From positions 1 to 64,000 of the forward strand of contig JAJCZL010000008.1 of NCBI GenBank assembly GCA_029262415.1: a stretch of DNA of 64,000 bases, read 5' to 3'. Under the pieces are notes generated by a model that made no database searches, had not been told where the DNA came from, and saw nothing but the letters and a program-made list of their open reading frames with translations. The position numbers were made by a program, and so were the translations under genes. Shown here piece by piece: positions 4,777-63,457 of the stretch (its first letter is position 1; each line of letters starts with the position of its first letter). This DNA comes from Deltaproteobacteria bacterium. GTDB taxonomy: Bacteria; Desulfobacterota; Binatia; UBA1149; JAJCZL01.

Positions 4777-6797
4777 GGGGTTACTCGGTTGTTACTTTCG
4801 GCCAGCGCTTTTTCAAGCCGGGCGGCATTGCGGCGGTATAGCTCGACTGCGGGGGCGAGCCGCATTGCTTTGCGGATCGAAGCGAGGGCCCTCACCGGTC
4901 GGTTTGTTAGATAGTAGAGGTTTGCCAGGTAGTGGTGCGGAAGCGCCGCAGTCTCGTCGAGCCAGGCGGTCGCCGCGAGCAGGTCTTCCGCTTCGCGCAG
5001 ACGGCCTTGTTCGATAAGCCCGCGTGCACGCGCACAGTGCTCCCGCGTCTTTGCACGCAGGGCGGCCGCGGCAACGCTCGGCTGAGCAGTGGCTGTGTTT
5101 TCCTCAGCGCCCGTGGCGCGGTCGAGTTGCGCGAGTAGGGTCTGCGCCGCCCGGTCGGTGGGGTTGATCGCGAGCACCTGCAGTGCTGCAGTGCGGGCGT
5201 TGCGTCGTTGTCCGCTTTCGAGTGCAACGATCGCAAGGTTGTACCAAGCGGGGCCGTGGCGGGGGTCGGTGGTGACCAGACGCCTATAAGCGCTTACCGC
5301 GTCCTCGCGACGACCGAGCAGGTCGTAGACGTATCCGAGGTTCAGCAACGTTGCGGGTTTGTTGGGGTTAAGCTCCCTAGCGCGTTCGAACGCGCTAAGC
5401 GCTTTGTAGTGCTCGCCGGTTGCCAAGCGCAGCAGTCCCATGTTGTGGTGTGCGTCGGCGAAGTCTGGGTCAATGCGTAGCAGTTCTTCTAGCTGAGCGA
5501 TTCCTTCTTGGTGCCGCCCGGTTTCAAGCAAGCGTAAGGCGAGGTTATTGCGGATCAACTCCGCTCTCGCGCTTTGCCCCAGCGTTTTCGTATACACGGT
5601 GATCTCGTCGCGCCAGTCTGTTGACCGCGCCGCGTCGACCGAGACGAAAACCGGGAGTAGGAAACACGCCACGAGCGCTGTTGCGCGGCGCAGGTTGGGG
5701 CGGTCGCGGTTTAGGCCATTGAGCGTGAGTGCGACGAGAAGAACGGCGCCGATACCCGGTAAGTAGGTATAACGCTCAGCGTACACGTTGAGTTTCGGCC
5801 AGCGGACCAGAAGGTAGGGAGCCGTGGTTACCGCCATCCAGATCAGGGCGAACGCTACTGCCGGGCGGCGGCGTAGCGTAAACCCCGCGCCGATCGCGAC
5901 TGCCATGGCCACGATCAAGCCCGCGATTACACGCGGGTCGGCAAAGCTGCCGGCTGCGGTGAAGTCGTGGTACATGTTGAGTTCGAAGGGCCAGGCGAAG
6001 GTCCGCAAATAAGAAGGGATCAATGCGAGCGCGTTGGCCGCGAGATCCGGGGGCGAGAACGTGCCTTCGCCCATGAGCCCCGGCAGCACGCCACCGAGGG
6101 CGCGAACCCTGAGGGTGGCGTACGTCGCGAAAGCGGGGATAAGAGCAAGGTAGCCCAACGCTTTTGCGGTGTATCCAGGTCTCTGTCGCCTTGCTCTAGT
6201 CAGTAGGATGTCGTCGGCGGCCATCAGCACCGGGGCGAGGATCGCGACTTCTTTGCACCAAAGTCCCGCCAAAAAGACCACCGTGATTGCAGGTGCATAG
6301 GCGGCGCGTGCCGCAGCGTGCAGGCGCAGGATGGTGAGCAGGGAGAGCGCCGCGCCGAGGCCGGCGATGTCGGATATCCAAATAGTCGCCTCGGACCACG
6401 CCGGGTGTACGGCAAAGATAGCTGCGGCGAGAAACGCGGCGTTGGGCGCGAGGCCGGCGCGTCCGAACAGCCACAGCACCAGCGTGCAGTTGGCAGCATG
6501 GACGAGAAGATTGAGCAGGTGCGCGGGGATCGGAGTGTCGCCGAAGAGGGCCAACGACACGGCGAGCGGGGCGGTCTGAAGCGGACGGTAGTACTGGTGT
6601 ACGTGGGTGTTTCCAGGAGTGTCGTTGAACCCCCACAGCGGCTCGACGAACAGGCGGTGTGTCTGCGCGATATCGCGAACCCGTTCGTCGCGGGTAACGA
6701 AGATAGCGTCGTCGAAAACAAAGTCGTTGGCCAGCGATGCGCCGTAAGCTGCCGCGACGAGCAAGACCAGTAGGGCGGATCGTCCGCGCCGACTCAT
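4773..6797 (-). CDS. TMTC-like GT-C membrane protein with C-terminal TPRs
   Basis: The 674-residue protein has about ten hydrophobic helices in residues 1-400 and TPR units over about 420-660. The N-terminal region carries GT-C marks: an acidic FVFDDAIF motif in the first luminal/periplasmic loop, YYRPL, and HLLNLLVHAAN. These resemble TMTC-type O-mannosyltransferases and bacterial TPR-fused relatives that use lipid-linked sugars. The sugar donor and acceptor cannot be read from sequence. It overlaps the upstream DUF2723 gene and the downstream phosphodiesterase gene by four bases each (ATGA), so the three are translationally coupled. An alternative reading is a membrane TPR scaffold that has lost transferase activity, but the acidic pair is retained. 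Confidence 0.78.
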   Translation of the reverse strand: MSRRGRSALLVLLVAAAYGASLANDFVFDDAIFVTRDERVRDIAQTHRLFVEPLWGFNDTPGNTHVHQYYRPLQTAPLAVSLALFGDTPIPAHLLNLLVHAANCTLVLWLFGRAGLAPNAAFLAAAIFAVHPAWSEATIWISDIAGLGAALSLLTILRLHAAARAAYAPAITVVFLAGLWCKEVAILAPVLMAADDILLTRARRQRPGYTAKALGYLALIPAFATYATLRVRALGGVLPGLMGEGTFSPPDLAANALALIPSYLRTFAWPFELNMYHDFTAAGSFADPRVIAGLIVAMAVAIGAGFTLRRRPAVAFALIWMAVTTAPYLLVRWPKLNVYAERYTYLPGIGAVLLVALTLNGLNRDRPNLRRATALVACFLLPVFVSVDAARSTDWRDEITVYTKTLGQSARAELIRNNLALRLLETGRHQEGIAQLEELLRIDPDFADAHHNMGLLRLATGEHYKALSAFERARELNPNKPATLLNLGYVYDLLGRREDAVSAYRRLVTTDPRHGPAWYNLAIVALESGQRRNARTAALQVLAINPTDRAAQTLLAQLDRATGAEENTATAQPSVAAAALRAKTREHCARARGLIEQGRLREAEDLLAATAWLDETAALPHHYLANLYYLTNRPVRALASIRKAMRLAPAVELYRRNAARLEKALAESNNRVTP

Positions 6798-8737
6798 TGG
6801 GCCTCGAGCACCTCGGCTCGGAGCGTGTGTCCGTGTGCCGCGAGCGGTTCGCCGTGCCCGTCGAGCCAGGTCGCCATTTGCCGGTGCGCCAGCGCGTTCT
6901 TAGGAGGCCCCGCCGCGCCTGCGGCCTGCACTTCGAGCGCCCGCAGACGCGTAAGTTCGCTGCGCAGTTCGCGAAGCTTGTCGGCCGCGCGCGGCTTCTT
7001 AGCGCTGGCCAAGTGTCGTGGGTTGATCTCGTGTGAATGCTCGAACGCCGCTACCGCTTCTTCGATCAAGCCGTTGCGCCAGTAAACGAGCCCGAGGTTA
7101 TAAAAGAGCACGTCGTTTTCGGGTGCGGCCTTCGCCGCTGCTTGCATACTCGCATAAGCACGAGGCCAGTCACGGTTCTCGAACGTAAAGCCGAGCATGT
7201 AGTGGAACAGGCCGACGAGGTTTTGTGTCAGGTAGTCTTTCGGTACACTCGGATCTTTCTCTCCCGGAAGTTCGGTCGCGGGGATCGATAGGTCTGGCGT
7301 GGGGGCGCCGGCACGGCGCGCCTGAAACACCACACCGAGCGGGACGATCTCGAGACCTGGGATGTTCCAGTTGGGGTGGTGTGTGAAGAATACGTCGTCG
7401 CTGTCTGGGTTAAAACGCAACGGCGGGAGTTCGGCTCCGCCGACGCCTTGGAGGATCAAATCGATGTCGGGGCGCAGACCCTCGGCGAGGTGCAGATACA
7501 TGAGTACGAACAGCACGTTGTCGTCTGTCGCGATCAGGCTCGCGCCGGGCGGAACCGAGTCGAGCACCGCCGTAGAGAACGCCTCGGCGATGCGGTAGCG
7601 GCTGCGGTCGAAGTCACGCCAGCCGGCTGCGAGCAGCACCAGTGGAATCAGCAGTGGGGCCGCGCGTACGGCCCTGGGGGTGCGCTTGAGAAGAGTGTGG
7701 GCTCCAACTCCGGCGAGTAACGCGATCATTGCCAAGCTCGGAGCGTAGTAACGGTGCCAGATGAAGATGTCGCTGCGCGAGCCATGGGTTGCCATCGAGA
7801 GGAAGTTGCCGGCCATAACCAGGGTCGCAAGAAGTGCGGGTGCCCACAGTTTACGCGCGGTCGCCAGTCCGACCAGCGCTAGAGCTGCACCTAGAAACGC
7901 GGTTTCGGTCGCGATTGCCTGTAGGTAGTCGAGCCCGATCGGCAAGAAATCTGCTGGGCTTTCCATCCAAGCCCGCTCCCAGAAATCGCGCCGGAAGACG
8001 GCGCCGAGAAAGCCATCGAGGGTTTCCGGGTTTCCCCAGTCCAGCCGTGGGTTGAAGCGGCTACGCAGTGGGAGGTAGGTATAAGGTAGTAAGCCGAGCA
8101 CAGTCATCGCGCCGAAAGAAGCGATGCGAAACGGTTGTGCGAGCACGCGCGGCTCGGAAAGCACAACCAAGACGGACAGGGCTAGCCCGTAGACGATCAT
8201 GAAGGTGTGGTTGCATGCGCCGAGTCCGCACAGGAAGTAGGCCGTGAGCAGGGTTCGGTTGTTGTGGTTGCGTGCCCAGCTCCACACCACGCCGGTTGTT
8301 ACGACGACGAACAGTGTATTGAGCCCATACACGCGCTGAATGTTCGCTTGCGACCAGACGCTCGGTGCGAAGCCGAGCATCAGCGCCGCGGTCAACGCTG
8401 CGGTCCGGTCACAGAGCGCGCGGCGTAGAATCCAGTACAAGGATGCGCAGGCTGTAGCCGTGCAGAAAGCACTGAACATGCTCATGCGGAAGGCGATCGA
8501 ACCGATCGGGACGAGCACCGTCCAGAGCTTCCCGAGCATGACGTAGAGCGGGTAGCCGCTCGGATGAGGGATGCCGAGCAGAGCCACGGCGGTGGTCAAC
8601 TCGCCGCTGTCGCCGACGTAGATCGTTCGCGAGGCGCCGCATACATACACGGCGAACATCGCCGCTGCGAGCAGGCACGCTTCGAGCGTCGACCTATCAT
8701 GGTCCGCGCGTATCGTCAGGGGATGGCTTGCCGTCAT
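6794..8737 (-). CDS. DUF2723 family GT-C membrane protein with TPR tail
   Basis: The 647-residue product starts with a short cytoplasmic tail and a long multi-spanning region (about residues 20-370). The DUF2723 hallmark YVGDSGELTTA followed by GIPHPSGYPLYVMLGKLW is present. DUF2723 proteins are GT-C-fold enzymes related to protein O-mannosyltransferases, with the Asp and Glu of GDSGEL as likely catalytic acids. A soluble region after about residue 400 ends in two or more TPR-like units (NDVLFYNLGLVYWRNGLIEEAVAAFEHS, split here only for description). It is the first gene of the coupled operon. Together with the next gene it suggests a surface protein or lipid glycosylation route. The ATG at 8737 follows a 65-bp stretch with no long open frame. 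Confidence 0.8.
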   Translation of the reverse strand: MTASHPLTIRADHDRSTLEACLLAAAMFAVYVCGASRTIYVGDSGELTTAVALLGIPHPSGYPLYVMLGKLWTVLVPIGSIAFRMSMFSAFCTATACASLYWILRRALCDRTAALTAALMLGFAPSVWSQANIQRVYGLNTLFVVVTTGVVWSWARNHNNRTLLTAYFLCGLGACNHTFMIVYGLALSVLVVLSEPRVLAQPFRIASFGAMTVLGLLPYTYLPLRSRFNPRLDWGNPETLDGFLGAVFRRDFWERAWMESPADFLPIGLDYLQAIATETAFLGAALALVGLATARKLWAPALLATLVMAGNFLSMATHGSRSDIFIWHRYYAPSLAMIALLAGVGAHTLLKRTPRAVRAAPLLIPLVLLAAGWRDFDRSRYRIAEAFSTAVLDSVPPGASLIATDDNVLFVLMYLHLAEGLRPDIDLILQGVGGAELPPLRFNPDSDDVFFTHHPNWNIPGLEIVPLGVVFQARRAGAPTPDLSIPATELPGEKDPSVPKDYLTQNLVGLFHYMLGFTFENRDWPRAYASMQAAAKAAPENDVLFYNLGLVYWRNGLIEEAVAAFEHSHEINPRHLASAKKPRAADKLRELRSELTRLRALEVQAAGAAGPPKNALAHRQMATWLDGHGEPLAAHGHTLRAEVLEAQ

Positions 8738-8802
8738 GCTCGGGTGTGTGCGTCAAGTGACGCGAGCAGCCGATTCTAGCCGGAAGGGGAGGATTTCGGA
8801 AC

Positions 8803-8958
8803 CTACGGTGAGATCGGGTCGGCGCTGGGTGGATTCACGCCGCTGAGGTGATACATCGTGCGGGCAAGCTGCCGGTTGGTGTCGAAGGAGTTGCTGTGTT
8901 GAAAGAGCCCATACATATCGTAACGCGACTGCGTAAGGTCGGCGGCTGAGGGGAATTC
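8803..8958 (-). pseudogene. Possible C-terminal fragment of an unidentified protein
   Basis: Between the DUF2723 start and trkA, the minus strand encodes about 50 residues, ...DLTQSRYDMYGLFQ... to ...PPSADPISP, ending at TAG 8803. Third codon positions are strongly G/C biased over the last 37 codons, as in real genes here, whereas the part running on into trkA looks like ordinary antisense frame. No start with a ribosome binding site is visible; an ATG exists at 8916. It may be the tail of a gene cut by rearrangement, or a 37-residue gene. No family is recognised. Confidence 0.3.
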
Positions 8959-8964
8959 GGCGGC

Positions 8965-10314
8965 GTGCACGTCATCGTTATCGGCGCGGGCGAGGTCGGC
9001 CGTTACCTTGCCCAGATTCTCGTAGAGGAGAAACACGACGTTTGTGTCATAGAACAGGACGAACAACTCGCCCTGGACCTTGACCAACGTATCGATGCCA
9101 GCGTGATCCACGGGACCGGCGTATCGCGCGAGGTATTGTTCCGCGCCGGGATCAGCAAGGCGGATCTGTTGCTTGCGGTTACACGGGTCGACGAGGTCAA
9201 CCTGATCGCGGCCATGACCGCCGAGCGACTCCGACCGGAGTGCCGGACGGTCGCGCGCGTGCGCGACCCTCGCTACCGAGGAGGAACCGATGCCATAAGT
9301 GCCCAGGAGTTTGGTGTTGACTATCTCGTTGGGCCGGAGCAGACGGTGGCCGATCAGGTTGTCAGCCTGCTGCGCTACATTGGTCCCGGACAGATCTCGA
9401 CAATCGGCAAGGGGCAGGTTTCGCTGTTGGAGGTCCCGGTTACGGCTCACTCGCCGCTGGCCTACGCGACCTCCGAAGAAGTTCGTGGTGCGGCACCGGA
9501 GGGCACTTCGCTCATCGCCTGCAGCGGTGACAACGGTTTGCGGTTCTGTGCTGGAACTGACCGTTTCGAGATCGGCGAACGTGTGTTTGTGTTGATACCT
9601 CAGCGAAACGTAGGGGATTTTCTCGCGCTTGCATCGGAGGATTCTCACGCTGTTAAGCGGGTTCTGATCGTCGGTGGCAGAGGTGTCGGTGAGGTCGTCG
9701 CCCGTTGCCTGTGCTCGCTCCGTATAGAAGTTACGTTGATCGAGCGCGACCGTGCGCGCGCTGAGGCCCTCGCGGTCAAGCTTCCGCGCGCCACCGTAAT
9801 CGCCGGCGATGCGACCGACGCTGTGGTGTTCGAGCGGCAGATGAGTGACGGACAAGACGCAGTCGTAGTCTTGCTTTCTGACAATGAAACCTCACTGTGG
9901 ATCGGACTGGTCGCCAAACACCTAGGTGCCACCAAGGTTATCGCCCGCGCCGGCAAGCGCGCATACGCACCGATCGCCTACAAGCACGGCATCGACGCCG
10001 TCATTTCACCGCGGCGTGCGATGGCGGATGCAATCCTCCGTTACGCGCGCAGAGGGCGCGTAAGCGCGACGGTCATGCTCGGTGATCACGAAGGAGAGCT
10101 GGTCGAGTTCACGATCGGAAAACACCCCGGTCACGGAATCACGGAAACTCCGGTCGCGGGACTCAAGCTGCCAGACGATTCGATGGTCGTGCTTATTGTG
10201 CGTGGATCCGAAATCGTCTCCATTGCTGATGATACGGTGATTGAACCGGGTGATCACGTCATCGCGATCGCGCTTCGTAGTGCGGTTTCAAGGCTTGATG
10301 CTTTTTTTGCCTGA
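8965..10314 (+). CDS. trkA: Trk potassium uptake regulatory subunit TrkA
   Basis: The 449-residue product has the two RCK modules of TrkA. Each begins with a Rossmann nucleotide-binding motif: VIGAGEVGRYLAQ at residues 4-16 and a second, LIVGGRGVGEVVARCL, near 234. Each is followed by a TrkA-C domain (around 145-215 and 365-449). It is a peripheral NAD(H)/nucleotide-sensing subunit that gates the TrkH channel encoded immediately downstream. The GTG start at 8965 is supported by GAGGGG at 8948-8953, and length matches two-domain TrkA proteins (about 450-460). The trkA stop lies 15 bases before the chosen trkH start, so co-transcription is expected. Confidence 0.95.
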   Translation: MHVIVIGAGEVGRYLAQILVEEKHDVCVIEQDEQLALDLDQRIDASVIHGTGVSREVLFRAGISKADLLLAVTRVDEVNLIAAMTAERLRPECRTVARVRDPRYRGGTDAISAQEFGVDYLVGPEQTVADQVVSLLRYIGPGQISTIGKGQVSLLEVPVTAHSPLAYATSEEVRGAAPEGTSLIACSGDNGLRFCAGTDRFEIGERVFVLIPQRNVGDFLALASEDSHAVKRVLIVGGRGVGEVVARCLCSLRIEVTLIERDRARAEALAVKLPRATVIAGDATDAVVFERQMSDGQDAVVVLLSDNETSLWIGLVAKHLGATKVIARAGKRAYAPIAYKHGIDAVISPRRAMADAILRYARRGRVSATVMLGDHEGELVEFTIGKHPGHGITETPVAGLKLPDDSMVVLIVRGSEIVSIADDTVIEPGDHVIAIALRSAVSRLDAFFA

Positions 10315-10329
10315 GTGGGAGGTCGTGGG

Positions 10330-11787
10330 GTGATACGTGTCACCTTCATGGCCAAGCTGCTCGCCCGCGTTTTTCAGTTCGCGGCGGCAAGCCTGGCTAT
10401 TCCGGGACTCGTTGCTCTGGGGTACGGTGATGGTGAGGCTTGGTCGTATGCGGCGACCGCAGTCTTGGCACTCGGGGTAGGGGGCATCCTCTTTATCATC
10501 GGTCGCGCGAGCGACCTCTCGGAATTGTCCCACCGCGAGGGATTCCTCGCGGTCGTCGTTTCTTGGGTCGTGCTGATCGTGCTCGGCACGATTCCTTTCT
10601 GGATCTCAGGTGCGATTCCGAGCTTGATCGACGCGTTTTTCGAGTCGGCGTCCGGATATTCGACGACCGGCGCGACGATACTGAACGATATCGAAGCGCT
10701 GGGGCACGGCCATCTGTTCCAGCGTAGCTTGGCGCACTGGATCGGTGGTATGGGCATCATCGTGTTGTCGGTCGCGATCCTCCCGGATCTCGCGGTCGGC
10801 GGGATGCAGCTTTTCTCGGCTGAATCCTCCGGTATCTCCACCGACAAACTCTCTCCTCGCATCGTCTCGACCGCGCGTCGTTTGTGGCAGATCTACGCCG
10901 GGCTCTCGCTGGTTTTGGCGGTACTCCTGCGGTTCGGAGGGATGAATTGGTTCGATGCGGTCACGCACTCCTTCGGAACGCTGGCGACCGGTGGGTTCTC
11001 GCCCAAGAACGCGAGTATCGCCGCGTATGGAAGCTTCTATATCGAAGCCGTGATCACCGTGTTCATGTTGCTTTCAGGGATGAGTTTTGCGCTTCACTAC
11101 CGGATGATCGTGCGGCGCCAGTTTGAACCGTTACTGCGCTCGGCCGAGGTGGGGGTGTACTTCGGCATCTATTTTGTCTTCACCGCGGTAATCGCCGCAA
11201 CGCTCGTTAACGACGGGACCTACCTGCAGTGCGGGACCGCCCTACGCGCCTCTGCATTCCAGGTGGCGTCGATCCTCACCACCACAGGCTACGCCACTGC
11301 GGACTTCGACCGCTGGCCGGATCTTTGTCGCTACCTCCTGGTGGTACTGATGTTCGTCGGGGGGTGCGCCGGGTCGACGGCCGGGGGTGTCAAAGTTGTC
11401 CGTGTACTGTTGGTGTTCAGGCATGCTGTGGCTGAACTTCGTCGGCTATTGTATCCCACGGCCGTGATACCCGTCACGATCGGCGGTCGCGCCGTTCCGG
11501 TGGATACGATTCGGGCGATGCTCGGTTTCTTTCTTCTCTACATCATGACGACTCTTGTCGCCGCTACGTTGGTTGTTGCCCTGGGGATGGATTTGGTCTC
11601 CGGCGTCACGGCAGTGATCAGTGCCATGAACTCGATTGGTCCGGGCCTCGGAACCGTTGGTCCGGCCTCTAACTTCTCCGATGTCCCGTCGGCCGCTAAG
11701 CTCATCCTCTCCTTTTGTATGGTGGTCGGGAGACTCGAGATTTATACGGTATTCGTGCTTTTCACCGCCGCTTTCTGGCGTCGCTAG
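10330..11787 (+). CDS. trkH: Trk potassium uptake channel TrkH
   Basis: The 485-residue integral membrane protein has four pore-loop repeats of the TrkH/KtrB family, visible as SGYSTTGATIL, FGTLATGGFSPKN, LTTTGYATADFD and AMNSIGPGLGTVGP, which together form the K+ selectivity filter. An open frame extends to GTG 10315, but the GTG at 10330 has GGAGGT at 10318-10323 with 6-nt spacing, so I chose it. It assembles as a dimer with a TrkA ring from the upstream gene and imports K+ at the inner membrane. The gene ends 43 bases before the converging dnaE2 stop. Confidence 0.95.
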   Translation: MIRVTFMAKLLARVFQFAAASLAIPGLVALGYGDGEAWSYAATAVLALGVGGILFIIGRASDLSELSHREGFLAVVVSWVVLIVLGTIPFWISGAIPSLIDAFFESASGYSTTGATILNDIEALGHGHLFQRSLAHWIGGMGIIVLSVAILPDLAVGGMQLFSAESSGISTDKLSPRIVSTARRLWQIYAGLSLVLAVLLRFGGMNWFDAVTHSFGTLATGGFSPKNASIAAYGSFYIEAVITVFMLLSGMSFALHYRMIVRRQFEPLLRSAEVGVYFGIYFVFTAVIAATLVNDGTYLQCGTALRASAFQVASILTTTGYATADFDRWPDLCRYLLVVLMFVGGCAGSTAGGVKVVRVLLVFRHAVAELRRLLYPTAVIPVTIGGRAVPVDTIRAMLGFFLLYIMTTLVAATLVVALGMDLVSGVTAVISAMNSIGPGLGTVGPASNFSDVPSAAKLILSFCMVVGRLEIYTVFVLFTAAFWRR

Positions 11788-51342: not shown

Positions 51343-51440
51343 TCGGCCGATCGGCTGATTGGAAACCCGCACCTGCACGGCGTAGGGGTTAGGGCCGAGC
51401 CGCGGCGGCGCTTGCCGTCGTTGCCGACCGGTCTGAACCC

Positions 51441-53324
51441 GTGGCCCAACGCAGCTTCGAGAAACCCGACGGATCCGTTGCTGCTTCGGCTCGCCTCGAA
51501 GCTTTTTTCGGGCACTTGAGCGACCGCTACCGTGCCCGCCTAGCCGCATGGGAGCCTGCGCGCGCGCGAATCTCGACGCTGGCGATCGCGCGCGCAGCCT
51601 TGCGCGCTGCCGAAGTATCCGCTGCTGGGCAAGGCCCTTTTCAACTCGCGGTAATCGGTCCCACCCAAGTCGGCAAGAGCACGATCGTCAACGAGCTGCT
51701 CGGCGTAGAAGTCGCACAGCCGAGTCCGCTTGCCGGATTCACGGTGCAGGCGCACGCCTTTGATACCCAAGGGGGCAACCTGGCGCGCGTGCGATCGCTG
51801 TTTCCCCATCGCTTGGTCCAGACCGCGGTTGAGTCGGGCCGGGAGTCGGCCCCGGATTCCAACAAAGGCCGCGCGACAGTCGTCGGTACCGAGCGCGGGC
51901 CGGTGTCTGCACCCGATGCCGTGGTCTACAGCGAAGTCGCAGGGGCGCACCTGCTTGATGGCGATGGCGCTATCGTGTGGGACACGCCCGATTTCGACTC
52001 GGTTGCGAGCGGCCCGTATCGAGACGCTGCACTCGAGACACTCGCGATTGCCGATGCGGTGTTGTTGGTGCTCAGCAAGGAAAAATACGCAGACCTGACG
52101 GTTTGGAACGTCCTGTCGATGATCGCACCACTTGGCCAACCGTTGCTGGTTTGCCTCAACAAGATGACGCCCGACGCAGAACCGGCAATTCGGCGTTCAC
52201 TGCTCGCCCGGTTGGCGAGCGAAGGGGTCTCTCTCGACACCGCGTGTTTACTCAGTGTACCGGCGTTTGCCTACGGCCGGGCTGAGTCAGCGGATGAGCG
52301 CGCAGCGGTACAAGCGCTGCGCGGCGGTGTTTCAAGTGTTGCGGGCACCGCCCGTTCCGCCTCCCAACGGCGCAGCGGGGCAGTGGACTTTATGCGTGCA
52401 TATTGGCCTGAGTGGATCGAGCCTATCATCGCCGAACATGCTGCAGCCGACGATTGGAGCGACAAAAGCGCTGCCGCCGTCACCGAGGCCGCGGAGACTT
52501 ACGAACGGGAGTTCCTCGACCACCCGCAACGCTACGATACCTTCAGGCGGGCGACCGCGGAGTTGCTCTCTCTTCTTGAAGTTCCGGGTATCGGCGGGGC
52601 GCTTGCAGGAGTGCGGGCGATCGTTACCTACCCGGCTCGGCGTCTGCTCGCAGCCGGAAGGTCTTTGTTGGGGCGCGCGGCGGCAAGCAGTGGCGCGATG
52701 GTGCACGGCGAAGGCAGCGAGCAAACCGTTCTCTTTGAGATCGCCGATCACCTGCTCGCGGGTGCGGCGCGCGACGCTGCGCGCAGGGCTTCGTCGGGTG
52801 GTGCTGCGGCATCGCTGTGGAGAGCCCTCGCGTATGCGCTCGAAGAACGCGAGGACGCCTTGCGTTCGCAGCTACGTGAGGCCGCTCGCAAGAGCTGCCG
52901 TAACTTTGAGCCGGAGATCCAAGCGGCCGCCGACAAACTCTACGAACAGCTGCGCACGCGGCCTGCGCTGCTCAACGCTCTGCGCGCAACACGCGCCAGC
53001 ACCGACCTCGCCGGCGTCGCGCTTGCGATTAATTCAGGTGGTGCGGCGCTCGATGACTTGCTGTTCGCGCCTGCGATGTTTGCGGTGACATCAATGCTTA
53101 CCGAAGGCGCGCTCGGATCCTATATGCGCGGGGTGGCTGCGGACTTGAAGGCGCGTCGTAAGGCCGAGGTGAACGAGAAACTGTTCCAATCTGTGTTTGC
53201 CGATGCGCTCCGTGGTCTGCTCGATGAGCTCGACGGTGAGAACCTGTTTGCGGTCGAACCGGAACAACTCGAGCGCGCACGAGCAGCTATCGATGCGCTG
53301 TCTGAGAACCGAGGGCACCTGTGA
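51441..53324 (+). CDS. Dynamin-like large GTPase A
   Basis: The 627-residue protein has a P-loop GTPase domain: G1 GPTQVGKST (73-81), a G3 region VWDTPDFDS (179-187) in place of the usual DxxG, and G4 LNKMTPD (239-245). The rest is a long helical stalk with a hydrophobic patch near 510-560 (LLFAPAMFAVTSMLTEGALG), as in bacterial dynamin-like proteins that bind or remodel membranes. GTG 51441 has no obvious ribosome binding site, but no better start exists. Its stop overlaps the start of GTPase B (GTGA), so the two are made together and probably act as a heteromer. No specific bacterial dynamin-like group is recognised. Confidence 0.78.
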   Translation: MAQRSFEKPDGSVAASARLEAFFGHLSDRYRARLAAWEPARARISTLAIARAALRAAEVSAAGQGPFQLAVIGPTQVGKSTIVNELLGVEVAQPSPLAGFTVQAHAFDTQGGNLARVRSLFPHRLVQTAVESGRESAPDSNKGRATVVGTERGPVSAPDAVVYSEVAGAHLLDGDGAIVWDTPDFDSVASGPYRDAALETLAIADAVLLVLSKEKYADLTVWNVLSMIAPLGQPLLVCLNKMTPDAEPAIRRSLLARLASEGVSLDTACLLSVPAFAYGRAESADERAAVQALRGGVSSVAGTARSASQRRSGAVDFMRAYWPEWIEPIIAEHAAADDWSDKSAAAVTEAAETYEREFLDHPQRYDTFRRATAELLSLLEVPGIGGALAGVRAIVTYPARRLLAAGRSLLGRAAASSGAMVHGEGSEQTVLFEIADHLLAGAARDAARRASSGGAAASLWRALAYALEEREDALRSQLREAARKSCRNFEPEIQAAADKLYEQLRTRPALLNALRATRASTDLAGVALAINSGGAALDDLLFAPAMFAVTSMLTEGALGSYMRGVAADLKARRKAEVNEKLFQSVFADALRGLLDELDGENLFAVEPEQLERARAAIDALSENRGHL

Positions 53325-55117
53325 GTGGTGGTTCTGATAACCCGGTTGTTCGTGCGTTCACCGAGGCGCGTGACTGGGCTCTGCGCGCACACAGCGAGCA
53401 ATTGATTGATGCCGAGATGCTGGCCCGGTTCAGTCAAGTTGAAAGTGCGGTTCCGTCCGACCTGTTCCTCGGAGGTGGTCCACGGCCGTTGGTTGTCGGG
53501 CTGTTTGGTGGCACCGGTGTCGGCAAGTCGAGCATGTTGAACCGCTTTGCGGGCGAGACCGTTGCACGCACCGGAGTCGAGCGGCCGACCTCGCGTGAGG
53601 TGACCCTCTACCTACACACGGGTGTCGCGTTAGCCGATCTACCGGGCTCACTACCCTTGGACAGGCTCCAGGTTAGGCGTCACAAAAACGCGAAATGGCG
53701 CGACGTCTTGTGGCTCGACGCGCCCGATATCGACAGCGTCGAGGGGCGCAACCGCGAGGCTGCACTTGCGTGGCTGCCGCACATCGATTTGCTCCTGTAT
53801 GTCGTCAGCCCCGAGCGCTACCGTGACGATGCCGGTTGGCGAGTGCTCGCGGCGCGCGGCGGACGGCACGCATGGATGTTCGTAATGAACCGTGCCGATG
53901 AATCGGACCCTGCACAGCGCGAAGATTTTGGTCGCATGTTGGCCGAGACGGGGTTTACCGAACCGATGCTGTTCTCGACGTCATGCGCCGAGGCTCAGTC
54001 GGTCCGCGAAGCTGCCGGCGATCAATTGGCAGCCTTGGAGTCCGCGATCGAAGATCTGTTGCGCGACCATGGTGTAGCAGAGCTGCAAAAACTCGGTGAA
54101 GCTGCGCGTCTCGACGCGCTTGCCACACTGCTACGCGAAGCCTCCGGCGCTGTCGGCAATACGGAACAATGGGCAGCACTGCGGGTCAGATGGACGAAGG
54201 AGTGGCAGGTCTGCGCTGCAGATCTACGCGCGGGCTTAGACTGGCCCATTCGTGCAATTTCTGAGCGTTTCGCAGCACGGTCTTATGATTTGAAGGCGCG
54301 CTTGCTGACGCGTGCGGCCAAGGTCGCGGTGCCCGCAGCTGCGGGCAAGGCCATGGCCGGGCTTGAGCAGGCGGCCGATGAGGTGCTGGGTGAGGCAGCG
54401 ATCGATGCAGCGGTCTCAACAGATACTCGTGTTTCCGGTTCAGGACTTCGCAGCGGTGATCCCAGTGCGGTCGCCGATACCACCGAGGTGGTCGAACCGC
54501 TATGGGACGAATGGGCCCGGCGCCGCTTGGAGACAACCATCGATACCACCGAGCTGGTCGCGCGACGCGGTGGGCTGCCGGCTGAATCCGTGCGCGCCGG
54601 TCTCGAGTCGGCGGCCGAAGCTGCGCCGGCTGCAGTGCGCGGCCGCGCTCAGGAAACGCTGCGCGCAGCATTGGCAAGCCCCGGCAACTTACTCAGACGT
54701 GCGGCTCGACGCACTGCCCGTTTTCTCAGCGGTGCCCTGCCTGCGGCTGCGCTTGCTTGGGTCGGCTATACGGTAGTACGCGGCTACAGCGAGGCGGCAG
54801 CGGGAGCGGCACCTTACCTGACCTCGGACTTTGCGGTTCACAGTGTCTTGATGGTCGCGGTCGCTTGGAGTTTCCCTTACGCGCTGGACCGATTGTTAAG
54901 ACCCGCAATGGAAGAGGTTGCCGCGAAAGCGCTCAGGCGCGGCTTGGCCGAAGGCGTCGAAGATCTTGGACGCGAACTACAGAGGGGTTTCGAGGGTACC
55001 GAGAATCAGGCCGCCGAACTTGCCGGGGCTGCCGTAGAACTTGCCTTGCGAATAGACCCGGGCGCGGTCGGTTCGCACGCCAAGGGCGCTCTAGCACGGG
55101 TAGTTTCGCGCGCCTAG
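53321..55117 (+). CDS. Dynamin-like large GTPase B with two membrane helices
   Basis: The 598-residue protein has G1 GGTGVGKSS (63-71), a possible G2 Thr in RPTSREVTL, G3 region WLDAPDIDS (131-139) and G4 MNRADESD (189-196, Arg for the usual Lys). A helical stalk follows. Two membrane helices lie at about 469-487 and 505-523 (LPAAALAWVGYTVV and VLMVAVAWSFPYAL), and an amphipathic C-terminal helix ends the protein. It shares with GTPase A the pattern D-x-P-D-[FI]-D-S where DxxG is expected. Membrane insertion suggests that B anchors the complex while A is recruited. GTG overlaps the A stop by four bases. Confidence 0.8.
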   Translation: MSGGSDNPVVRAFTEARDWALRAHSEQLIDAEMLARFSQVESAVPSDLFLGGGPRPLVVGLFGGTGVGKSSMLNRFAGETVARTGVERPTSREVTLYLHTGVALADLPGSLPLDRLQVRRHKNAKWRDVLWLDAPDIDSVEGRNREAALAWLPHIDLLLYVVSPERYRDDAGWRVLAARGGRHAWMFVMNRADESDPAQREDFGRMLAETGFTEPMLFSTSCAEAQSVREAAGDQLAALESAIEDLLRDHGVAELQKLGEAARLDALATLLREASGAVGNTEQWAALRVRWTKEWQVCAADLRAGLDWPIRAISERFAARSYDLKARLLTRAAKVAVPAAAGKAMAGLEQAADEVLGEAAIDAAVSTDTRVSGSGLRSGDPSAVADTTEVVEPLWDEWARRRLETTIDTTELVARRGGLPAESVRAGLESAAEAAPAAVRGRAQETLRAALASPGNLLRRAARRTARFLSGALPAAALAWVGYTVVRGYSEAAAGAAPYLTSDFAVHSVLMVAVAWSFPYALDRLLRPAMEEVAAKALRRGLAEGVEDLGRELQRGFEGTENQAAELAGAAVELALRIDPGAVGSHAKGALARVVSRA

Positions 55118-58646: not shown

Positions 58647-59972
58647 ATGGTAGCAAAGCTTCTTTGCGTCGGCGACATGCTCATCGGCTGTCGTCCGTCG
58701 CGGATTCCCGCTGGATTAGCCGAGTACCGGCGCGATGCTTCGGCCCTGTCGCCTGTGGCTGCTTGGCGCAACACGGTTCGATGGGGTATCGAGCACAGCG
58801 TCGATGCCGTAGTTCTCCTCGGCGACGTGCTCTATAGCCCAGACGATCGTTTCGAAGCTTTCGGGCACCTGGAGCGCGGGGTCGGCGATCTTCTTAACGC
58901 CGGAATCCATGTGCTGGCTGTTGCCGGTGAACGCGATAGCGATTCGCTGCCGAGGCTCGCCGAACGGTTTGACGGGTTTCAACTGCTCGGGCGCGATGGC
59001 CGTTGGGAATTCACCACACTGAAGACGAAGTCCGGTTTCGAGGTTCGGCTTCTCGGCTGGTCTTTTCCCTCCGGCCGTTTTCGCGACAACCCGCTCGATA
59101 CCCTCGGCCACAAGTTCAACGACACCACGCCGACCATAGGCCTGCTGCATTGTCATGTAGATGGAGGAAAGAGTCCGCACGCGCCGGTACCGCGTGCCAC
59201 GCTCGAGCGCGCGCCCGCCGATGCTTGGTTGCTCGGTCACGTCCACGAGCCCGGCGACTTGGCCGGCGTTCGCCCGATCGGATACCTCGGCTCGATCGTC
59301 GGACTGGATCCGTCTCAGACCGGCGCACGCGGCCCTTGGCTGGCCGAAGTCGAAGGCCGACGCGACATCAAGTTGACTCATATCCCGATAGCGCCGTTGC
59401 GTTGGGAAGTTTTGGAGATCGACGCTGCGTGTTTCGACACTACGTTGCCCGGAGATCTCGGGGAGGCCATAGGTGCTGCTGTAGCCGACGGTTTTAAGAA
59501 GTTGCACAGGCGTTTGGCCGAAGCTGTCAAAGCCGGGGCAGCCGTCGGCTGCCGCGTGGTAGTGACGGGTCGCAGTAAGCAACACCGTGCGCTCCGTCAC
59601 GCACTTGAGAACGATGACGTTGCCGATCGGCATCGTGTGCTCGACGACGTGGTCTATTTCGCCGAGAGTGTCCGTGACGATGCCGAGCCCACGCTTGACC
59701 TCGAACAGCTCGCGCAGGCGAGCGACCCGCCGGGTTTACTCGCGCGCCGGCTTCTCGCGTTGAAGGCCGGCAAGGAGGAGTGCGAACGCCTGGTCGACGA
59801 GGCATCGCGTGAAATGTCGGCGTTCTCCGAACGCAACGCGAACTGGAGCGCGTTGGGTCCGGTTGAGGAAAACCCGTTCGACACGCGTGGGCTTTTGCTG
59901 CGCGCCGGTCTTACCGCACTCGAGGAACTTCTCGCCCAAGACGGTGGCGATCGGGCGGGGGCTCGGCGATGA
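58647..59972 (+). CDS. SbcD/YhaO-like metallophosphoesterase with eroded metal site
   Basis: From ATG 58647 the 441-residue product follows the Mre11/SbcD/YhaO layout, but several metal-binding motifs are changed. Motif I, usually D-x-H, reads GD10-M-L. Motif II, usually GDxxD, reads GD60-VLY. Motif III, usually GNHD, reads GERD (94-97). The late motifs are kept: H168/H170 in LLHCHVDGG and GHVH at 197-200. With the first His, the second-shell Asp and the Asn/His of GNHD gone, two-metal nuclease catalysis looks doubtful. A C-terminal helical part (about 255-441) probably contacts the ATPase subunit. The stop overlaps the start of the YhaN-like gene (ATGA), as for sbcD-sbcC and yhaO-yhaN pairs. 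Confidence 0.8.
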   Translation: MVAKLLCVGDMLIGCRPSRIPAGLAEYRRDASALSPVAAWRNTVRWGIEHSVDAVVLLGDVLYSPDDRFEAFGHLERGVGDLLNAGIHVLAVAGERDSDSLPRLAERFDGFQLLGRDGRWEFTTLKTKSGFEVRLLGWSFPSGRFRDNPLDTLGHKFNDTTPTIGLLHCHVDGGKSPHAPVPRATLERAPADAWLLGHVHEPGDLAGVRPIGYLGSIVGLDPSQTGARGPWLAEVEGRRDIKLTHIPIAPLRWEVLEIDAACFDTTLPGDLGEAIGAAVADGFKKLHRRLAEAVKAGAAVGCRVVVTGRSKQHRALRHALENDDVADRHRVLDDVVYFAESVRDDAEPTLDLEQLAQASDPPGLLARRLLALKAGKEECERLVDEASREMSAFSERNANWSALGPVEENPFDTRGLLLRAGLTALEELLAQDGGDRAGARR

Positions 59973-62900
59973 GGCTGCGTCAGATTAACCTGCGGCGGGT
60001 GCCGGGAATCGACCCGCCGTTTTCGCTCAACAACCTGGCTTCGGGTGTCAACGTGATCGTCGGGCCCAACGGTTCGGGCAAGACCTCGATTTGCCACGCC
60101 GTCGGCGCGACACTTTGGCCAGAGCAGACCCGCTACGACCGCGCTGAGATAGAGACTCTGTGGGAAGAGGGCAGCGAGATGCTGCGCGCCGACGTCGAGG
60201 GCAACCGTGTCTCATGGCAGCGGGCGGGTGCCGACGCAGGCCCTCCCGCGTTACCGGACGGCCACCTAGCTCCGTGCTACACGCTGAGCATCCGTGATCT
60301 TCTCGGTGAGCATGCCGATACCGACATCGATATCGCTGGACAGATCCGCATACAGATGTCTGGCGGGTACGATCTACAGTCGGTCCTCGAACAGCGTTTC
60401 CGTGTGGCCCCGCGCGCGGGGATGGTGACTAAGAAAGCGCTTGACGATTCGGAGCGGCGACTATCGGCAGAGCGCAAACGTATGCGCGATCTCGCGCAGG
60501 ACGAAGACCGTCTTACTTCGCTTCGTGCCGAACAGGACCGCGCGCGCAAGGCGCACAGTGACGTGCAGGCTCTCGAACTCGCGATCGAGTTGGCCGACGT
60601 CCGCGCTAGACTCGCCGCGGTACGGGCAGAGTTGGCGTCGATGCCCATTGGCCTGGAGCGGATTACCGGCGAAGAAACAGACCGGGTAGATGAGCTCACG
60701 CGCGATCTCGCGCAGGCCAATCTCGGTGTCCGCAAGTGCGAAGAGCGCATCAAGGCGGCCGAAGCACAAATAAGAGACTCGCGGATGCAGAGCGAGGCTA
60801 TCGACGACGCTTCGGCAGAGAGCTGGCGCGCGCGCGCTAAAGAGCTCGCAGAACTAGAACGCGACCTAAGGCATGCTTCGACAGAGGCGGAGAAGGCAAG
60901 GGCCAAACTAGCGAGCACGCGGGCCGCGCTCGGAGCCGAACCCGGTGGGGACCAGCAGCCGCGCATCGAGCTGTCGGCACTCAGCGACCTGGAGGGCTTT
61001 TTGCAGAGGCGCGCCGATTTACACACGCGGCGGACAACGCTCGAGGAAAGACTGGTGACGCTCGAGAGCGGCGCGGGTGTCGAGGATCCCGGATCCCTTG
61101 CGCGCGGTCTCGACGCACTACGCGAATGGCTCGCGGCGCCGCTTCCGGGTCAACGGGCACGGGTGCCGTTCTGGGTTGTCGTGTTAGCGATGATTTCCGC
61201 GGGTATCGGTTCGATCTTCGCTCTCGGGGCCAGTCCTTGGTGGTCTTTAGTGACGGGTGCCGGTGCCGGGGTGCTGATCCTTGCAGGCATCCTGCGTTTC
61301 GCGACCGATGATGCCAACCGCGAACGCCAGCTACACCTTCGGCGCTGGCGTGAAACCGGCCTGGAAGATCCGCCCGATTGGTCGCCGGATTCGGTTCGTA
61401 AACTTGTCCGCTCGCTGGAGACGCGTCTGGCGCGTTCTCACGTGCAGCGCGAACGCGAGGGCCAGCGACAGGACTTAAAGCAGCAGCTCCGTGCCGTCGA
61501 GGTCATGTGGGAGGGGCTCGAGAAGGAGCGCGAGTCGCTGCGCAACCGACTCGGTGTCGACCTTCCCGAATCCGATCTCGGCGCGCTTGAACTCGCCAGG
61601 CGGATTCAAAGCTACCGAGAAGCGCTGGGCGATCACCAATCATCGTCGGCTGCCAGTGGCGAGTTGGCCTCCAAGCGCGACTCTGCGCTGGAAGGCCTGA
61701 ACCAGTTCCTCCACGTGCAAGGTTACGACTCCGGCGGCGATTCAGCAGGTGTTGTGACCGCACTCGAGAATTTCCAGGGGCGGCGTGCTTCCTTCCGTGC
61801 AGGGCAGGCCGAGCGGATGCGCGCGGAAGCCGAGCGCGCCGAGTACCAGACCAAGGCGACGGTTCTGCAATTACGCGTCACGCGGTTGTATCAAGAGCGC
61901 GGACTCGAGGACGACGATCGCGACGGTCTTCGCCGCTACATCGACATGTGGCCGACGTACAAAGAACGCCGGCTCGACGAAAGAAAACTCAGCGGGCGTG
62001 TACTCGAATTCGAGCACAAACTCGCCGAGAGAAGCGACCTTGCCGGATTAACGGCTGAGGAAGCTGCCAGGCTCAAGGCAGAAGCCGAGTCGACGGCACG
62101 CCGTTACGAAGAAGCCACGAACGAGATCGGGCAGATCCAAGAGCGCGTGCAGCATGCACGGAACGGCAGTCAGTTGGAGTCTGCGGCTGCAGACCATCGG
62201 AGGGCGCAGGCCGACTTGTTCGATGAACGCGAGCACGCGCTTTTGCGGACTGCAGGTAGGTTCCTGATAGCCGACGTCGAGAAGGAGCACGAACTCCATT
62301 CGCGGCCGGTCGTTTTGCGTCGCGCGATGGAGTGGTTCTCGTCGTTTACGCGCAACCGTTACGAGCTTGTTCTCACCGAAGGTGCGGATGCGGTGTTCCG
62401 TGCGCGCGATACATCGACGGCGCGCGAGTTATCCATTTCGGAACTCAGCGATGCTACCAGGATTCAGTTGCTGCTTGCCGTGCGCCTAGCATTTGCGACC
62501 CACGCTGAGCGCGGAGTGCAGATACCGCTGTTTCTCGACGAGGCTCTGAGCACCGCTGATCCCGAGCGTTTTCGCGCCGTGGCCGAGAGCCTGATGGTGC
62601 TTGCCTCCGAGGGGCGCCAAGTTTTCTATCTGACTTCGAACCCCACCGACGCGGCGATTTGGACACAGATCCGCGACTCCGGTTCCAAGAAGAACAACCG
62701 ACCGAATGTAGTTGATTTGGCTACCGCGCGTGGACTGCAGGGTTCGGTACTCGACCCTTCGCAACTCAAGCCGCCGCCGGCCAGGGTGATCCCGGAGCCC
62801 GACGGGGCCAAAGCGGAAGACTACGGCGTGCGTTTGGGCGTGAGTCTTCCCGATCCCTTCATGCCGGTTGACGCCGTACATTTGTTCTATTTGCTGCGCG

Positions 62901-63457
62901 GTGATCTCCCTCTCCTTTACCGGGTTATGTGTGCGACGCGTGTCGAGACCGTCGGGCAGTGGCTTTCGCTTTCGCGCGCCGGCCGCGCCGACCGCCTACT
63001 GTCGGGGACGGTTTGTCGACGTATTGATACGCTTGTCGATTGTGCGACGGCTGTCTTCGAGGGCTGGGTAGTAGGACGCGGCAAACCAGTCGATCGCGAG
63101 GTGCTCGAAGAAAGCAAAGCGGTCGACGGAAAATTTTTGCGACGCCTGACCGATGTCGCCAATGACCTTGGCGGCGACGGCGAACGGTACTTGATGGTGA
63201 TTCGTGACGGGCTCGACGACCGCACCGCGGGCTTCCCCGCCGAGTCGATCGACAAGCTGCGTAGTTACCTAGAAGAGAACGGCTTCATAGACGCGCGTGA
63301 GACGCTCGGGGAGAGCGAGCTTTCAACCTACGTCCTCGAGGCCATGGCCGACCATATAAGCGCCGGTCGCATCACCCACCATGAGGTTTCACGCAGAGTC
63401 GAGGAGTTCCTCGCGTTATTTGAGCGCTCAGGCACGGTAGCTCCGGTAGCGGCTTGA
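59969..63457 (+). CDS. YhaN/SbcC-like AAA+ SMC-type ATPase with central membrane helices
   Basis: The 1162-residue protein has a split ABC-type ATPase head: Walker A VGPNGSGKTS (31-40), then signature ELSDATRIQLLLAVRLA (about 822-838) and Walker B IPLFLDEALSTADPERF (about 852). Between them are long coiled coils (about 145-330, 470-800), but no CxxC zinc hook. Two hydrophobic helices interrupt the coil (about 398-441: VPFWVVVLAMISAGIGS, WWSLVTGAGAGVLILAGIL), as in Bacillus YhaN, so the protein is likely membrane-tethered. After the ATPase about 275 residues (885-1162) form a mostly helical extension, VDAVHLFYLLRGDLPLLYRV to LFERSGTVAPVAA, that I do not recognise and that YhaN/SbcC normally lack. 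It is coupled to the SbcD-like gene. Confidence 0.85.
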   Translation: MRLRQINLRRVPGIDPPFSLNNLASGVNVIVGPNGSGKTSICHAVGATLWPEQTRYDRAEIETLWEEGSEMLRADVEGNRVSWQRAGADAGPPALPDGHLAPCYTLSIRDLLGEHADTDIDIAGQIRIQMSGGYDLQSVLEQRFRVAPRAGMVTKKALDDSERRLSAERKRMRDLAQDEDRLTSLRAEQDRARKAHSDVQALELAIELADVRARLAAVRAELASMPIGLERITGEETDRVDELTRDLAQANLGVRKCEERIKAAEAQIRDSRMQSEAIDDASAESWRARAKELAELERDLRHASTEAEKARAKLASTRAALGAEPGGDQQPRIELSALSDLEGFLQRRADLHTRRTTLEERLVTLESGAGVEDPGSLARGLDALREWLAAPLPGQRARVPFWVVVLAMISAGIGSIFALGASPWWSLVTGAGAGVLILAGILRFATDDANRERQLHLRRWRETGLEDPPDWSPDSVRKLVRSLETRLARSHVQREREGQRQDLKQQLRAVEVMWEGLEKERESLRNRLGVDLPESDLGALELARRIQSYREALGDHQSSSAASGELASKRDSALEGLNQFLHVQGYDSGGDSAGVVTALENFQGRRASFRAGQAERMRAEAERAEYQTKATVLQLRVTRLYQERGLEDDDRDGLRRYIDMWPTYKERRLDERKLSGRVLEFEHKLAERSDLAGLTAEEAARLKAEAESTARRYEEATNEIGQIQERVQHARNGSQLESAAADHRRAQADLFDEREHALLRTAGRFLIADVEKEHELHSRPVVLRRAMEWFSSFTRNRYELVLTEGADAVFRARDTSTARELSISELSDATRIQLLLAVRLAFATHAERGVQIPLFLDEALSTADPERFRAVAESLMVLASEGRQVFYLTSNPTDAAIWTQIRDSGSKKNNRPNVVDLATARGLQGSVLDPSQLKPPPARVIPEPDGAKAEDYGVRLGVSLPDPFMPVDAVHLFYLLRGDLPLLYRVMCATRVETVGQWLSLSRAGRADRLLSGTVCRRIDTLVDCATAVFEGWVVGRGKPVDREVLEESKAVDGKFLRRLTDVANDLGGDGERYLMVIRDGLDDRTAGFPAESIDKLRSYLEENGFIDARETLGESELSTYVLEAMADHISAGRITHHEVSRRVEEFLALFERSGTVAPVAA

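Follow-up and report, generated by a model that had tools for sequence, protein, structure and literature searches.

Mre11 holds two manganese ions with seven conserved residues (PMC7407228). A nuclease-deficient form of the Escherichia coli complex, SbcCD-H84Q, loses only about 15% of its ATPase activity (PMC6265447). YhaO/YhaN pairs are another related system, annotated as a "DNA repair exonuclease" and an AAA ATPase. Here, we describe a similar pair of genes from a 64,000-nucleotide stretch of DNA ("the window") in a metagenome-assembled genome. The genome is 3.9 Mb in 83 contigs, with 96.8% completeness and 0.6% contamination, and the pair lies on a contig of 107,890 bases.

The gene pair and its predicted fold

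The positions of the two genes and of their motifs are given in Table 1. The stop codon of the subunit's reading frame overlaps the start codon of the ATPase (ATGA, 59969-59972), which implies translational coupling. There are no internal stops or frameshifts across the 441 codons of the subunit gene, and its GC content by codon position matches that of the ATPase gene. As in Mre11/SbcD systems, the subunit is in an operon with a Rad50/SbcC-like ATPase whose Walker motifs are intact (GPNGSGKT and LFLDE). At the columns that are conserved among its relatives, the ATPase shows no departures (0/37). This agrees with the initial annotation, which described an intact frame coupled to an apparently complete ATPase. 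(Two neighboring reading frames in the window at 51393-55117, of about 643 and 598 amino acids, match the GTPase family MMR_HSR1 and bear a weak resemblance to dynamin; close to its C-terminus, the second contains a hydrophobic stretch.)

Table 1. Positions of the gene pair and its functional motifs in the window
Feature	Position	Strand	Details
Mre11/SbcD-like metallophosphoesterase subunit (P0001)	58647..59972	+	441 aa; PF00149 match, subfamily profile, AF2, Foldseek
Motif 1	58674..58682	+	D10 kept (GAC, 58674-58676); H12 to Leu (CTC, 58680-58682); D10-M-L12 for DxH
Motif 2	58824..58835	+	D60, the ligand, is kept (58824-58826); Tyr at position 63 (58833-58835), Glu/Asp in relatives
Motif 3	58926..58937	+	GNHD to G-E95-R96-D97 (GGT GAA CGC GAT)
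Motif 4	59148..59156	+	H168 kept; D170 of relatives is His (H168-C-H170)
Motif 5	59238..59246	+	GHVH; H198 and H200 kept
Rad50/YhaN-like ATPase partner (P0002)	59969..63457	+	1162 aa; Walker A intact
ATPase Walker A, GPNGSGKT	60062..60085	+	Subfamily alignment
ATPase signature motif, ISELSDATRIQ	62435..62467	+	Gly in most, but Ala here and in L126, L136, and L137
ATPase Walker B, IPLFLDEAL	62522..62548	+	Subfamily alignment

The subunit matches PF00149 with 22.0 bits (the curated cut-off is 21.5), while its intact relative L080 scores 39.2 bits. The AlphaFold2 model of the subunit, from a 59-row alignment, has a pLDDT of 93 and a pTM of 0.90, and the active-site segments are modeled with high confidence. 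Among the PDB matches that Foldseek listed for this model, 50/50 were Mre11 or SbcD, with E values down to 1.2e-14, and the profile of the subfamily (described below) also matches Mre11/SbcD chains in the PDB. From these comparisons, the subunit is predicted to have the nuclease and capping fold of Mre11. TM-scores against Mre11 or SbcD in the PDB, by target length, do not exceed 0.64 and the rmsd is large, so either the arrangement of the domains differs or the alignment is only partial.

A patchily distributed subfamily

Judging from its sequence, the pair is part of a subfamily of Mre11/Rad50-like proteins that has a patchy distribution and is apart from SbcCD and from generic YhaO/YhaN. 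A profile built from four members identified 80 loci in GTDB genomes, from the Pseudomonadota, Planctomycetota, Myxococcota, Acidobacteriota, Kiritimatiellota, Nitrospirota, and other phyla. After duplicates were removed, we had 85 distinct relatives. Members of the subfamily score at least 309 bits against the profile and YhaO-like proteins score at most 139 bits. The window's subunit scores 718 bits, but its sequence is in the seed alignment; a phmmer search with this sequence alone gave the same nearest relatives. (A scan of the genome contigs with a single sequence gave no match, and the alignment-based scan did find relatives.) In a quick tree, the subfamily and YhaO form separate groups, with a support of 100. 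A subfamily ATPase adjoins nearly all of the loci that have sufficient downstream sequence, and this is also the case in the window. The initial annotation placed the subunit as SbcD/YhaO-like; it is indeed Mre11/SbcD-like and similar to YhaO, but it falls in a subfamily of its own.

Within the window's order, a relative of the subunit occurs in just one other genome, G011, at 47% identity. More relatives, about 40% identical, come from several genomes of one genus in the same class, some of which carry two or three copies. Haloarchaeal plasmids have relatives at 32-37% identity, annotated as "DNA repair exonuclease" and "SMC family ATPase". On a plasmid of Halorussus caseinilyticus (L163, 9989-13846), the nuclease match opens a single annotated AAA ATPase of 1285 amino acids, and the two subunits seem to be fused. 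On other plasmids of haloarchaea, the two subunits are encoded by two overlapping genes. At another locus (L014, 7777-11346, on contig C161 of genome G033), a stop near 8620-8625 splits the ATPase in two, while the nuclease gene is intact; a second copy in that genome (L015) is whole. Phages gave only distant matches and viral contigs gave one weak fragment. Nothing ties the window's copy to a plasmid, a phage, or another mobile element.

We also asked what else the genome encodes. A search for PF00149 found only the window's subunit and one membrane-type phosphoesterase, and a search with the SbcD model TIGR00619 gave no match. Five of the other 12 genomes in the order have an SbcD above the TIGR00619 cut-off, and G011, like the window's genome, has none. 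Across the order, the pair occurs without such an SbcD in 2 genomes, SbcD occurs without the pair in 5, and 6 have neither. The subfamily's pair and a canonical SbcD were not found together within the order, but these numbers are small. No conserved third partner gene is common to the relatives and to the window's surroundings; the one weak overlap between neighborhoods is a histidine kinase with generic domains. The nuclease subunit matched none of the anti-phage defense systems in PADLOC, and the ATPase had only short matches at the level of the P-loop.

Three invariant active-site residues are changed in the window alone

The five metallophosphoesterase motifs of the subunit read VGDMLIG, LLGDVLYS, AGERD, LLHCHVD, and LLGHVHEP. 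The alignment to the homologs is clean through all five motifs, which rules out that the true motifs lie elsewhere or in another frame. We compared these residues across 124 homologs (85 members of the subfamily and 39 YhaO-like proteins). His12, Asn95, and His96 are invariant in all of them, and the window alone differs, with H12L, N95E, and H96R. Asp10, Asp60, Asp97, His168, and His200 are invariant as well. His198 is replaced in one member of the comparison set, from the Acidobacteria (L157, 8950-10290), in which GHxH has become GPxH; the subfamily has thus lost a metal ligand independently a second time. The patterns that were used to fetch the loci (DAVxxxGDV and IGxLHxxxD) do not cover His12, Asn95, or His96, so the set of 80 loci is not biased towards proteins in which these residues are intact.

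The initial annotation had read D-M-L for DxH and GERD for GNHD, and it had both the letters and the positions right. It also counted GDxxD, which reads GD-VLY, as lost. But no ligand is lost there because the metal ligand is the first aspartate, Asp60, which is present in the window as in 85/85 subfamily members. Position 63 is glutamate in 68 members and aspartate in 17 (so the motif usually reads GDVVE or GDVVD), and is tyrosine in the window. The late HxH and GHxH motifs had been described as intact, which holds for His168, His198, and His200, but His170 is a private change from the relatives' Asp170. Overall, five of the seven Mn ligands are kept (Asp10, Asp60, His168, His198, and His200), so the claim that most of the metal-binding motifs are lost was overstated.

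Of the remaining two ligands, His12 is lost and Asn95 is replaced by glutamate. By comparison with Mre11, His12 would be a ligand of metal 1 and Asn95 would be a ligand of metal 2. Glu95 could possibly be a metal ligand in its own right. The catalytic histidine, His96, is arginine in the window, and an ungapped alignment pairs this arginine with residue 84 of E. coli SbcD. With H12L, N95E, and H96R, the subunit lacks the complete set of seven Mn ligands and a catalytic histidine that characterizes Mre11/SbcD.

Decay or retained function?

The initial annotation suggested an alignment of homologs to distinguish an old loss from a private one, and it regarded private changes as a hint that the gene may be decaying. 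The loss is private and not lineage-wide: 85/85 relatives keep His12, Asn95, and His96, and 0/124 homologs share the changes. We also compared the window at the 53 columns that are conserved in 97% or more of the relatives. It differs at 9/53 of them, which is the most of any member (the next highest is 6). The nine departures are H12L, L13I, A47G, A58L, V62L, N95E, H96R, D170H, and E224Q. Of these, seven fall no more than two residues away from an active-site residue, as do 20/53 of the columns (hypergeometric P = 0.010). A caveat is that the two-residue distance was picked after the data were seen. If we consider just the eight active-site residues, then 3/8 are changed, versus 6/45 of the other columns (P = 0.12, Fisher test, same 97% threshold), which is not significant. 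Because of the post hoc criterion and the narrower test, we view the clustering as supporting evidence only.

The rate of change of the subunit is not clearly raised. Relative-rate counts (Tajima-type) for the window's subunit versus L080 are 49:48, 48:44, and 51:45 with the distant outgroups L015, L084, and L106, which indicates no acceleration. With nearer outgroups, the window's subunit appears to be faster than that of L080 (68:36 with L085, 65:43 with L081, 78:47 with L013, and 74:38 with L095), but some of these four may group with L080. The ATPase has no significant excess on the window's side with any outgroup. We set aside dN/dS with the nearest relatives because fourfold sites are near saturation (identity of 0.32-0.41, versus 0.27-0.32 expected).

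Could the gene be in the early stages of decay? That is, selection on the nuclease would have been lost and the gene would be drifting, with its frame kept by chance or by its coupling to the ATPase. The changes are private, the conserved-site departures are the highest of any member, and the subunit is faster than its nearest relative with some of the outgroups, as would be expected from decay. But there is no stop or indel, the changes cluster near the active site rather than being spread out, the partner ATPase is intact, as are the other conserved positions, and the distant outgroups give no acceleration. We also simulated neutral change, allowing substitutions only; among the runs that reached nine conserved-site changes, 8% were free of stops. 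A frame can survive in this way by chance, but since it does so in only 8% of such runs, the intact frame is mild evidence against a long period of neutral drift. We consider decay to be unlikely. An error in the sequence or the assembly is far less probable still. There is just one assembly, in 83 contigs, but the altered codons would require several separate base changes at two sites, while the frame and the flanking conserved residues are intact, and both the length of the contig and the quality of the genome argue against it.

Another explanation is that the active site has been remodeled. The second metal pocket (Asp60, Glu95, His168, and His198) would bind one metal, and the enzyme would be a modified phosphoesterase, perhaps a mononuclear one, that acts on another substrate; as part of the same reading, Arg96 would take over the contact with the phosphate and His170 would add a ligand. 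Five of the seven ligands are kept, glutamate can ligate metals, and His170 is a new histidine two residues from the ligand His168. There is also a partial precedent: the lariat debranching enzyme Dbr1 was crystallized with only its beta pocket filled (Asp45, Asn90, His180, and His230; PMC4176325). However, Dbr1 keeps the GNHD pair (Asn90 and His91) and the histidine at the end of the first motif (His16), and both are changed in the window. Also, we found no active metallophosphoesterase in this analysis in which both His12 and His96 are replaced. We view remodeling as unlikely too, if marginally less so than decay. The fuller evolutionary version, in which a natural Mre11-Rad50-like machine with a rebuilt site (E95, R96, and H170 in place of N, H, and D) and a single metal or a new substrate evolved from an ordinary two-metal nuclease within one lineage, seems slightly less plausible than either.

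The most likely reading of the sequence is that two-metal cutting has been lost, as His12 and His96 are gone while the fold, the reading frame, and the ATPase are intact. The lack of stops or frameshifts, the lack of a robust increase in rate, and the concentration of changes around the active site speak for a retained function that does not involve cutting. We think it reasonably probable that this subunit, known from a single metagenome-assembled genome, is a nuclease-disabled Mre11-like protein that has been kept as the DNA-binding part of an ATP-driven clamp. Nuclease catalysis would have been lost in its own lineage, with the protein still made and a non-catalytic job retained. By analogy to SbcCD, we infer that the subunit still assembles with its ATPase: the ATPase dimer would use an ATP-driven cycle to clamp DNA ends or duplex DNA, and the metallophosphoesterase dimer and its C-terminal helices would hold the ATPase heads together and line the path of the DNA. 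Without His12, Asn95 (now glutamate), and His96, such a clamp would recognize, tether, or protect DNA instead of cutting it. The initial annotation had proposed a disabled two-metal nuclease with a structural or DNA-sensing role, or else a one-metal chemistry. The loss of His12 and His96 in an intact setting fits the first of these, but the change is confined to the window. The finding is real and private, and the changes are probably inactivating, but it is narrower than first described and comes from a single genome.

Comparison with known systems

There is a precedent for a loss of nuclease motifs in which an ATPase survives, and there the loss has persisted in more than one species. Five genomes (G030, G482, G483, G050, and G056) from a different order of the window's class encode a YhaO-like protein in which essentially all of the metallophosphoesterase motifs are gone. 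In G030, this pair (L020, on contig C11, at 6590-7813 and 7824-10898) has AAGLRLN, SGGIE, AGPDD, and VGQADEP in place of the motifs. Homologs of the L020 pair (L164-L168) are about 50% identical in three sister genomes and 32% identical in G056. The adjoining YhaN-like protein has no recognizable N-terminal Walker A in four of the genomes, and keeps it in G056 (HGANEAGKTT in L168). These two proteins appear to be an ancient, conserved pair of pseudoenzymes, which may be of greater interest than the window's case. (In G030, the pair adjoins an arginine-decarboxylase-like reading frame. G030, G482, G483, and G050 each have a second YhaO-like copy, and the motifs are intact in G030's.)

The literature yielded nothing useful on YhaO/YhaN or on the residue numbers of the Mre11 ligands. 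Like E. coli SbcD and Thermotoga maritima Mre11, the window's pair has the Mre11 fold (as predicted), the same order of motifs, and coupling to an SMC-like ATPase. Unlike them, it is in its own sequence subfamily, it has lost His12, Asn95, and His96, and it does not match TIGR00619. It shares the two-gene layout of the YhaO/YhaN pairs and is about 25-34% identical to them over most of its length, but a clean gap in profile scores and the separate, fully supported group in the tree distinguish the two. As a metallophosphoesterase with a changed first motif, it also resembles Dbr1, which was crystallized with one metal (PMC4176325); but in Dbr1 the aspartate of DxH has become cysteine and the GNHD pair is kept.

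The nuclease-dead mutants SbcD H84Q and Mre11 H85S have a replacement of the same catalytic histidine, and the H84Q complex keeps its ATPase activity (PMC6265447). A deposited structure of Mre11-H85S with DNA and manganese (3dsd) is among the Foldseek matches listed for our model. If our preferred reading is correct, then the window encodes a natural separation-of-function form of an Mre11-Rad50-like complex, with the ATP-driven clamp kept and the scissors removed. The assembly that contains the window has no canonical SbcD. The case is weakened by resting on one genome. Nuclease-dead mutants have so far been made in the laboratory; the change in the window is natural and comes with two further changes in the active site, and a natural lineage of this kind would show what roles the complex has besides cutting.
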